Shown here in pieces: positions 633 through 61,500 of a stretch of DNA of 64,000 nt. Location of the stretch: the NCBI RefSeq assembly GCF_035083965.1, contig NC_089723.1:39687193-39751192 (forward strand). The letters are read 5' to 3'. Position numbers and translations under genes: made by a program. The DNA comes from Branchiostoma lanceolatum. Lineage: Eukaryota > Chordata > Leptocardii > Amphioxiformes > Branchiostomatidae. Numbering within the stretch: the stretch's first letter is position 1; each line of letters begins with the position of its first letter. The notes under the pieces were generated by a model. That model made no database searches and was not told the DNA's origin. It was given only the letters and a program-made list of their open reading frames with translations.

Positions 633-1345
633 CAGAGTAAGATCGTGTTTACCGTAACTCCGTTGTTTACCTTGCTGTAGATGTGTATCGTGGTAAGATC
701 GTTTTTAAGGTTTCTTTACGGTTACAGTTTACAGTAACTTCATTATCCTGCCTTGCTACAAGGCCACGGGAGTTTCATCACATTTGTAGGTGTGTAGTTA
801 CAAGGTAGGATCGTGTTTAAGGTTTCTTTACGGTTATATAATACAGTTTACAGTACTAACTTGGTTTTCCTGCCTTGCTGTAGGCTACGGTAGCTGCATC
901 ACATCTATAGGTTTGTAGATACAAAGTAATATGTATAGATTTACCCTGATGAACCTCGATAAAGACTAAGGAATGGGTGCGAAGACCGAGGTCCAAACAG
1001 GTAAAAAGGCCTACAGAGGTACAGAACTGGAAGGGTGGGCGGGTGTGTGGGGAAAACCGACACAGACCTTGCCTTACTCCTTCCCTTTCCTTACCCCAAC
1101 GTGACACTACCTAGCCCTAAACTCTTCTTTCCCTATCCTCCGCCGGTTCGCCGCAAAGAGGCTGATAGATGGTGATGACGTCACTTTTCATGTTCTCTCG
1201 CGAGAATAGTGATCTCGCGAGATTTCATGTATTGTGACGTCAGTGGGAATATCGTGTTTAAGGTCTCTTTACGGTTGCAGTGTACAGTAACTTCGTTTTC
1301 CTGCCTTGCTGTAGGCTACGGCAGCTGCATCACATCTTCACCAGA
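633..1345 (+). repeat. Decayed tandem copies of the RasGRF exon 1315 splice acceptor
   Basis: Units of roughly 105-115 bp contain a stretch like ATCGTGTTTAAGGT, then TTTACGGTT, a pyrimidine tract, CCTTGCTGTAG and the first exon bases GGCTACGGCAGCTGCATCAC. Copies start near 640 (partial), 694 and 803; the functional one starts near 1245 and ends in the exon at 1315. A more diverged exon-start-like segment lies near 232-265. Only the last copy continues into the exon body. Confidence 0.75.
1174..1245. promoter_or_regulatory. Inverted pair of CRE and TCTCGCGAGA motifs
   Basis: Two perfect CREs (TGACGTCA, 1176-1183 and 1235-1242) flank two perfect TCTCGCGAGA palindromes (1196-1205 and 1213-1222). 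The arms form an imperfect inverted repeat of about 34 bp each. TGACGTCA is the CREB/ATF site; TCTCGCGAGA is a known vertebrate promoter motif bound by BANP and formerly linked to Kaiso. It lies 70 bp upstream of a RasGRF exon, so it could mark an internal promoter. Function is inferred from motifs only. Confidence 0.5.
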
Positions 1346-58519: not shown

Positions 58520-61500
58520 TCACGACTTGTCGGCGCAGTGCAGCAGCTCCAGCCTGAGCGCGATCCTGTTCTCCCACTCCTGCGGTAGGACCCGGATGTA
58601 GCGGGCGCGGACGGTGGAGTCGAGTCTGGTCTGAACCGGATCCCGGCCGTTCGCGTTGCCGACGAACAGCTGCAGGAGACAGGGGAGCCTTCGGAACAGG
58701 GCAGTCAGGATGGCAGACACACAAACACACAGACACACAGACACTGACACACACACACACACAGACACTGACACACGCACACACACACGGCACACACACA
58801 CACAACTGCAGGAAACATGCGAGGAACAGGGCAGTCAGGGATGGCAGACTTCATCCGCTTCACTAGGTTAGGAACACACACTGACACGCGTGCGCGCGCG
58901 CACACACACACACACTGATCACAAACACACCCAAACACATACACATACACTGACAGCCACACACACACACATACACACACACACACACACACACATGCAC
59001 ACACACACACACACACACACACTCACACAAACAAACAGTCGTTGAAACAGCATATAAATTTATCTAAAGTATAACCTTAAAATGTATACATGAACATTAA
59101 AATCAATCATTTACGTTCAGAAGTTTCGATTGTTCATTTTGATCCTGAAGAAGACGACAGTGGTCGTTGAAAATTTGATCCTTGAATACCTTAGTGTTGG
59201 AAGAAAGTTTAGCATTGTATTATAAAAATCAAAAGTTCGACTAATGGCACTTTTTGTTCGTAAACGTTTTGTCTGTAAAAAATTTATATGCCTGACCTTC
59301 TGCGGCAGTGTACTGGGTTTGAGTTGGTTAGGTTTAGTTGTTAAGTTGTTTGTCTGTAAACTTTATTTCTGTCTTATATGCCACACTCTCTTCGGTACAG
59401 CACTGTTAGAGTACTTGATCCAGTGCTTAGTTAAGATTGGGGTTCGGGTTAGACGTTTTAGATGTTTACTTCACCTTCTGCGGCGCAGTACTGTTGGAGT
59501 ACGTGATCCAGTACTTAGTTAGGATTAGGGTTAGGGTTAGATGTTTTATTACTTCACCTTCTGCGGCGCAGTGCTGTTAGAGTACGTGATCCAGTACTTA
59601 GTTAGGATTAGGGTTAGGGTTAGACGTTTTAGATGTTTACTTCACCTTCTGCGGCGCAGTACTGTTAGAGTACGTTATCCAGTACTTAGTTAGGATTAGG
59701 GTTAGGGTTAGATGTTTTAGATGTTGACTTCACCTTCTGCGGCGCAGTACTGTTAGAGTACGTGATCCAGTACTTAGTTAAGATTAAGGTTAGGGTTAGA
59801 TGTTTTAGATGTTGACTTCACCTTCTGCGGCGCAGTACTGTTGGAGTACGTGATCCAGTACTTAGTTAGGATTAGGGTTAGGGTTATATGTTTTAGATGT
59901 TTACTTCACCTTCTGCGGCGCAGTACTGTTGGAGTACGTGATCCAGTACTTAGTTAGGGTTAGGGTTATATGTTTTAGATGTTTACTTCACCTTCTGCGG
60001 CGCAGTACTGTTGGAGTACGTGATCCAGTACTTAGTTAGGGTTAGGGTTAGACGTTTTAGATGTTGACTTCACCTTCTGCGGCGCAGTACTGTTAGAGTA
60101 CGTTATCCAGTACTTAGTTAAGATTAAGGTTAGGGTTAGATGTTTTAGATGTTGACTTCACCTTCTGCGGCGCAGTACTGTTAGAGTACGTGATCCAGTA
60201 CTTAGTTAAGATTAAGGTTAGGGTTAGATGTTTTAGATGTTGACTTCACCTTCTGCGGCGCAGTACTGTTGGAGTACGTGATCCAGTACTTAGTTAAGAT
60301 TAAGGTTAGGGTTAGATGTTTTAGATGTTGACTTCACCTTCTGCGGCGCAGTACTGTTGGAGTACGTGATCCAGTACTTAGTTAGGATTAGGGTTAGGGT
60401 TAGATGTTTTAGATGTTTACTTCACCTTCTGCGGCGCAGTACTGTTGGAGTACGTGATCCAGTACTGCCCCGACAGGCTGTAGGACAGGTGGAAGGTCCG
60501 CACGAATCCCGGGTTAGTCTCGTCATCGGCCCCCTGCGTCACCACGCCGCCTAGCACCAGCTCTGTGCCCAGGTCAACCTACAGGAAGGCAATCACAGTC
60601 TCTCTACTTCCATCTCTTTCTCCATCTCTCTCTCCTTCTCTCTCTCTCTCTCTCTCTCTCTCTCTCTCTCTCTCTCTCTCTCTCTCTCTCTCTCTCTCCC
60701 TCTCCCTCTCTCTCTCTCTCTCTCTCTCTCTCTTTCTCTCTCTCTCTTTCTCTCTCTCTCTCTCTCCATCTCTCTCCATCTCTCTCTCCATCTCTTTCTC
60801 CATCTCTCTCTCCTTCTCTCTTCTTCTCTCTCCATCTCTCTCTCCTTCTCTCGCCATCTCTCGCTTTCTCCCTCTCTCTCTGTGTCTTTTTCTCCCCTCG
60901 TGTCTGTGCATTGTTGGATTTGGGAAGAGAGAGTGAAGGAGACGGAGAGAGAGAGGGAAGGAGAGAGAATGAAATAAAAAGGAGAAAGAACGGAGAGAGA
61001 AAATGAAAGAGAATTAAAGAGAGGAGAGAATAACAGAGAAAGAGGGTGGTGAAAGAGAGAGGAGGGAAGGAGAGGGTATGAATGAGAGAGAAGGGAGGAA
61101 GAGAGAGGTGAGGGAAAGAAATTAGAGAGATACATTGATAGATACACTAGTAAGTTGGCAAAACTCGGCTTCCAACTGGCCAAAACTAGATATCAGACAG
61201 GGCTTTGCCTTTGGATGTTTGTCCTGATTTGTTTTCTTTTGCTTTCTTTTATTGAGGACTTTCTGTCTCAATGATCACAACCCCAACTTAAGAAAATGGA
61301 GTATTGTTACTGTAACAGAAATACCATAGTGACCTGTATCCACTGTTCCTTGTCCTGTGTCCCCGGGACCCAGGCCCCTTCTCCCCCGGACAAGGCCTTG
61401 TAGTTCAGCCTCCCGCGGACCGGGTCACCTCCGGAGACGGCAGAGGACGCCGTCAGCTGGGCAGCGGGGATCTTCTGTAGCGTGTTGTCAACTCCGACCG

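Follow-up and report, generated by a model that had tools for sequence, protein, structure and literature searches.

Minisatellites known as 'mirages' have been described in several lancelet genes. The name was coined for those of Adh3, and in Adh3, BflGb6, BflGb9 and troponin C the tandem units lie across an intron/exon boundary, 5' or 3', with many units keeping the AG or GT of the splice site (PMC3087553). Units measure 10–72 bp in Adh3 and 150–160 bp in the globin genes. The globin mirages are present as six and three units on two haplotypes and evolve in concert within clusters, the units at cluster boundaries being left unhomogenised; RT-PCR suggested regular splicing of these genes, and a link with intron gain was proposed (PMC3087553). 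PGBD5 and troponin C have been presented as further cases, and in lancelet PGBD5 imperfect tandem repeats of 60 bp and 108 bp cover 5' and 3' splice sites, in copy numbers that are unequal between two sequence versions (PMC3902484). As far as the openly licensed text of these papers goes, mirages have been described gene by gene or family by family.

The stretch of lancelet DNA that we have analysed, 64 kb in length and referred to here as the window, holds arrays of the same kind: tandem units that cross exon ends on either side, many of them with the splice dinucleotide retained, as in both of the systems above. The earlier note on this DNA had pointed to amphioxus mirages and supposed that the type may be known, and the literature bears this out (PMC3087553, PMC3902484). 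Unlike the mirages in the described portions of these papers, however, the window contains 17 such arrays in 64 kb, spread over five of its six genes, and these include arrays at start and stop codons. PGBD5, in contrast, is a single gene, and the interpretation offered for it is, in the text available from that paper, confined to undisturbed splicing (PMC3902484). A further relative is the Rogers model of intron gain by duplication of AG/GT (cited in PMC3087553), which shares with the window a duplicated coding edge with splice signals. The window differs from that model in showing no new intron: the intron that carries the array at exon 2 of the third exchanger gene (NCKX-C, see below) has a counterpart in NCKX-B at the same place and in the same phase, and self-BLAST found no such array in that counterpart.

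We found no genome-wide survey of mirages in the open-licence literature, including the accessible text of PMC3087553, PMC3902484, PMC4284660, PMC9673378 and PMC8994340, and no codon-position test of the spare copies of mirages in the parts of the open-licence literature that were covered; either may exist in print. Thus, as far as this literature search reached, the kind of repeat is already known, and the density, the start- and stop-codon arrays and the coding history of the spare copies are what the window adds.

Gene models and coding edges

Exon models were drawn from open frames, splice consensus and paralogue comparison across the 64-kb window, giving 52 exon models in six genes. One gene encodes a RasGEF domain (E = 4e-63), one a MOLO1 domain (E = 2e-11) and the sixth an F5/8C domain (E = 2e-25). 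The remaining three, A, B and C, are exchanger genes in tandem on the minus strand, with an Na_Ca_ex domain recognised in the spliced gene A and in individual exons of all three. PDB was searched with two exons, each by itself, and no match was obtained. The closer names used below are RasGRF-like for the first gene and NCKX (SLC24) for the exchangers. The exon structure of NCKX-A, -B and -C (21647–56428) is largely common to the three. A phase-0 intron before the DLF/DVF exon is present in NCKX-B and NCKX-C and missing from NCKX-A, and the NCKX-C copy of this intron carries a 10-spare array.

Together the models have 104 coding edges within a genic span of 46.7 kb, namely 47 acceptors, 46 donors, six stops and five starts. 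Taking as the edge of each exon the copy into which its open frame continues, five of the six gene models are stop-free, and we infer from these open frames that the copy proximal to the exon is the one that is correctly spliced. The MOLO1-like gene (15688–19442, plus strand, six exon models) is the sixth; its model loses the frame from the beginning of exon 5 onwards, a boundary that is itself uncertain. As drawn, exon 5 (18459–18666) has no in-frame join, through either a wrong junction in the model or a frameshift in this copy. No edge array was found in this gene; its 12 edges are counted among the 104, and it is absent from all statistics on spare copies.

Inventory of arrays

Arrays were sought with TRF and self-BLAST. 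Before counting we removed the microsatellites (AC and TC, at 58711–59037 and 60599–61130, the latter including 61040–61103), TRF rows of period below 20, and the dispersed pairs at 6708/9583 and 55315–57229, after which 20 arrays remained. Two weak arrays, 4918–5065 and 58670–58860, were missed by this blind search and were aligned because the earlier note had named them; both alignments outscore all 500 dinucleotide shuffles, and their inclusion brings the total to 22. A coding edge is contained or abutted by 17 of the 22, or by 15 of 20 if the two note-named arrays are left out. By class, arrays are borne by 6/47 acceptors, 7/46 donors, 2/6 stops and 2/5 starts.

In the RasGRF-like gene, on the plus strand, the acceptor of exon Ea (1315–1445) has an array at 676–1337 whose three spare acceptors, at 681, 763 and 884, include two that carry 21–23 bp of exon, and a further spare acceptor lies outside it at 234. 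The donor of exon Ed (4830–4927) has a weak two-copy duplication at 4905–5125, in a gapped alignment with about five contiguous exonic bases (score 48, against 33 for the best of 500 shuffles).

All other edge arrays belong to genes on the minus strand. Four are found in NCKX-A: a stop-codon array at the last exon (exon 21647–21972, array 21057–21713) whose 69-bp unit holds the last codons and TGA; a donor array at E7 (exon 23138–23321, array 22700–23171) with a 129-bp unit and GT in all three spare donors; a donor array at E3 (exon 26340–26423, array 26161–26359) with a 71-bp unit and two spare donors; and a donor duplication at E2 (exon 27187–27474, duplication 26819–27308) with one spare and 117 aligned exonic bp. 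NCKX-B has six. Its last exon (35601–35914) ends in a stop-codon array (35121–35624), again of 69-bp unit, holding the last seven codons and TGA. E7 (37209–37433) is duplicated at both ends, at the donor (37074–37271, one spare, 63 exonic bp) and at the acceptor (37401–37633, one spare, 33 exonic bp). The acceptor of E6 (38128–38351) has an array with 8–10 divergent spares (38305–39623). The donor of E2 (42363–42495) is abutted by an array (41687–42363) of 29–64-bp units that contain GTAAGT, with 13 of 14 spare donors intact and one or two exonic bases. At E1, with its ATG at 44081, the start codon is duplicated (44044–44412) as one spare ATG region with 38 exonic bp and 5' flank. NCKX-C has acceptor arrays at E9 (exon 45990–46327, array 46305–46561, 97-bp unit, two spares) and at E2 (exon 51044–51176, array 51088–52461, 125-bp unit), the latter with 10 spare acceptors, each with 85–89 exonic bp. 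In the F5/8C gene there is an acceptor duplication at E4 (exon 58520–58669, duplication 58666–58849) with about four aligned exonic bases and an AC microsatellite between the copies, a donor array at E3 (exon 60426–60578, array 59283–60466) with an 88-bp unit, GT in 13/13 spare donors and telomere-like hexamers in the intronic part, and a 24-bp in-frame repeat with ATG (62490–62565) at the presumed start of the gene, which is uncertain.

Five of the 22 arrays have no coding edge: an intronic 63-bp minisatellite (3541–3789; TRF and self-BLAST), a two-copy intronic duplication (30981–31263; self-BLAST), two copies of a dispersed repeat within an intron (42579–42912; self-BLAST), a short 20-bp repeat in an intron of the MOLO1-like gene (16733–16779; TRF) and a short 21-bp repeat between genes (33532–33572; TRF).

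The earlier note had listed 16 duplications at exon edges. All 16 are real, 14 by TRF and self-BLAST and the two weak ones by alignment against shuffles, and at each of the 16 places a coding edge of our models lies within the duplication or directly beside it; the array at 62490–62565 was absent from that list. At 13 of the 16 places some spare has at least 20 bp of exon; at 41690–42362, 58670–58860 and 4918–5065 there is little exon. It had also counted only one edge-free intronic minisatellite, the one at 3541–3789, and the other four edge-free arrays given above contradict this.

Overlap of arrays with coding edges

One explanation of these positions is that duplications arise anywhere, that those within exons are purged and that the rest are neutral, in which case edge overlap would be the product of dense, short exons. 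With 104 edges in 46.7 kb, the expectation for segments of array length is already 7.5–8.8 of 17–20. The window was chosen for this feature, and the P values that follow accordingly differ from those of a blind test; the unit-length figures further below are inflated by this choice and by the manual addition of two edge arrays. Against random segments of array length, 12 of the 17 blindly found arrays lie on an edge compared with means of 7.5–8.5 (P = 0.007–0.045), and with TRF rows added 13 of 20 compared with 7.7–8.8 (P = 0.003–0.018); in this test the observed counts were computed, under an 8-bp rule that scored arrays 676–928 (there shortened) and 41687–42363 as misses.

The spares themselves carry the edge, and therefore one unit is the proper length of segment for a test against chance. 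Using unit-length segments with exon-internal placements excluded, and observed counts hand-assigned from alignments here and in the two tests below, 17 of 22 arrays lie on an edge against 3.4–4.2 expected, and even 13 was reached in none of 20,000 trials. If 15 bp or more are demanded on each side of the edge, 13 of 22 remain against 3.1, a count that again none of 20,000 trials reached. Among young arrays, those with a TRF match of at least 90%, six of seven are on an edge against 1.06 (0/20,000 trials), and slower decay of edge arrays is therefore insufficient on its own. Within the window, arrays are enriched at coding edges, and we regard neutral overlap as a rather unlikely account of them.

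A second explanation, of the kind that the earlier note had speculated on, is that a process linked to splice sites, whether through the spliceosome, R-loops or polypyrimidine tracts, breaks DNA and creates the duplications. It would suit the 13 of 17 edge arrays that sit at splice sites. However, the frequency of arrays at starts and stops is no lower than at splice sites (4/11 compared with 13/93, Fisher P = 0.08, the start and stop counts being small and one start presumed), and donors and acceptors bear them alike (7/46 and 6/47). We have set aside an R-loop or splice-site cause, given that start and stop codons bear arrays too, and find it improbable. The few start and stop arrays suggest that it is the edge of the coding sequence, rather than the splice signal, that is decisive. 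The remark, made from the letters alone, that both the density and the occurrence at start and stop codons look unusual is supported inside the window, with one of the two starts presumed.

Content and splice signals of the spare copies

The spares hold exon together with adjoining non-coding sequence. Units span an intron/exon boundary, as in described mirages, in 10 splice-edge arrays in which one or more spares include at least 20 bp of exon; three further splice-edge arrays (41687–42363, 58666–58849 and 4905–5125) carry just a few exonic bases, and the four start and stop arrays span no intron boundary and so fall outside this definition of a mirage. The retention of AG or GT in many spares is likewise seen, at 57 of 61 spare sites, and of the four spare sites without GT or AG, two have an AG one base off.

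Over the aligned codons, the same residues as in the translated copy are encoded by 11/13 spares of the F5/8C donor array, 2/2 aligned spares of NCKX-A E7 and 3/10 of NCKX-C E2. Several units have lengths (71, 88, 97 and 125) that are not divisible by three, and the spare of NCKX-A E2 contains a stop codon as well as, on visual inspection, a frameshift. The shortest unit length or offset is 24 bp and the longest about 350 bp, and the spares of an array, at most 13, are of unequal divergence. Among the five arrays with at least five spares, divergence increases away from the exon in the F5/8C array only (Spearman 0.63, P = 0.02).

Coding history of the spare copies

Across 13 arrays, the variable columns at codon positions 1, 2 and 3 number 34/216, 24/214 and 76/215, and the third-position count of 76 was reached in none of 20,000 frame permutations. 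Base composition was rejected as the source of this excess, as the non-coding rates for each base would yield 47 variable columns, compared with the 76 seen. The adjoining non-coding sequence is variable at 114/548 columns compared with 76/215 third positions, a difference that we do not claim to be real, since a local alignment leaves out non-coding sequence that has diverged. When spares alone are compared (nine arrays), there are 25, 13 and 41 changes at positions 1, 2 and 3 (P = 5e-4 against one third, 0.02 against 0.40).

For differences between spare and translated copies, the synonymous share expected of neutral change is 25%, and we set a ceiling of 40% for the case in which the translated copy changes only synonymously and the spare neutrally. 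Overall, 78 of 146 differences are synonymous. Variants shared between spares exceed the ceiling (19/27, P = 0.0014), as do the differences in single-spare arrays (30/48, P = 0.0014). Variants private to one spare (29/71) are not above the ceiling but are above the neutral share (P = 0.003), and under the default scoring the spares are therefore not cleanly neutral. The private changes of NCKX-B E6 are mostly nonsynonymous (20 compared with 6). Comparing third with first plus second positions in five arrays gives 15:5 for shared and 18:29 for private variants (Fisher P = 0.006), a contrast that leans on NCKX-C E2, without which P is 0.12.

The excess in shared variants and single-spare arrays persists under stricter alignment scoring and for kappa of 1–3. 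Under loose scoring (mismatch −1), shared variants (41/93) are not above the ceiling (P = 0.09–0.41), single-spare arrays (18/32) are marginal (P = 0.02–0.08) and private variants (69/233) are near neutral. The private changes appear compatible with an untranslated spare, and it looks as if the variants that have spread had passed through the translated copy. Exchange with the translated gene seems to have left its mark on the spares.

A different source for such a pattern would be function in the spares themselves, as alternative exon ends, backup splice sites or splicing enhancers under selection, and both the intact splice dinucleotides and the synonymous excess could be read in this way. 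However, at the non-coding divergence of 5.9% (88/1497, hand-summed) about 54 of the 61 dinucleotides would be intact in any case, and selection is therefore not needed to account for the 57; we have rejected it as the keeper of spare splice sites. The failure of private variants to exceed the ceiling and the damaged NCKX-A E2 spare likewise count against function, which we consider distinctly unlikely. It is highly implausible that the arrays are an artefact of assembly or of stacked haplotypes, a concern raised by the report that amphioxus heterozygosity can turn alternative haplotypes into separate assembled loci (at least in the covered text of PMC9673378), in view of the range of units and offsets and the unequal divergence of up to 13 spares given above, and of the confirmation of similar PGBD5 repeats on re-examination with Sanger and Illumina data (PMC3902484, in the text available).

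Proposed origin of the arrays

We favour, as probably correct, the reading that these are coding-edge minisatellites, or mirages, with continuing exchange of sequence between array and translated edge. A short segment across a coding end, be it acceptor, donor, start or stop, would be duplicated in tandem, and the array would extend into the intron or UTR. Exon definition and splicing would then select the copy continuous with the remaining exon, while repeated expansion, contraction and unequal exchange would move sequence between spare and translated copies. As the two kinds of copy would trade sequence, we propose that variants that have spread through an array have therefore mostly passed through the translated copy.

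Inheritance of the arrays from before the NCKX duplication was considered and rejected. NCKX-A and NCKX-B both have arrays at three corresponding edges (the E2 donor, the E7 donor and the stop), out of four and six among about 20 edges that the two genes share (P = 0.06); at such edges, the non-coding parts of the units are unlike by eye.

As to why coding edges might be hot, a tentative and rather doubtful idea is that the cause lies in extreme heterozygosity. Between the two haplotypes, introns may differ too much to recombine, and exchange would therefore end at the ends of coding sequence. Coding sequence would then form the sole islands of homology, unequal exchange would stop at splice sites, starts and stops alike, and the spares would be fossil exon alleles, recycled into the translated position when an array contracts. 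Polymorphism in the Chinese lancelet has been put at 4.39% for SNPs and 0.98% for small indels, with many large indels (PMC4284660, in the part covered). If this idea is true, such arrays are to be expected in further hyperpolymorphic animals and also along the borders of conserved non-coding elements, and should be few in species of low diversity.

Returning to coding-edge minisatellites that exchange with the translated copy, if they are this dense and occur at starts and stops as well, mirages would offer a route, acting genome-wide, for the copying and storage of coding edges and perhaps for their return to the gene. This would bear on intron gain, on the evolution of exon ends and on how the spliceosome neglects intact decoy sites, and a synonymous excess in untranslated spares would offer a direct sequence test of exchange between spare and translated copies.

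Minor features of the arrays and other repeats

Vertebrate-type telomere hexamers lie inside the 88-bp unit of the F5/8C donor array (59398–60466), and all 16 matches of TTAGGGTTAG in the window fall in this array, against 0.14 expected. They might be a trace of break repair at the birth of the array. In the NCKX-C E2 array, four adjacent spare acceptors (51548–51923) have CTCCAG instead of CTGCAG, and this block suggests local amplification.

Three other repeats were noted. A near-perfect inverted repeat at 2265–2443 has 68-nt arms that are 96% complementary, with a G run in the arm. By self-BLAST, a dispersed repeat has copies at 6708–6911 and 9583–9785, which are 95.6% identical, separated by 2.9 kb and both intronic in the RasGRF-like gene. 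A second dispersed family is found, among the matches listed, at approximately 2590–2890, 8640–8930 and 40920–41340.
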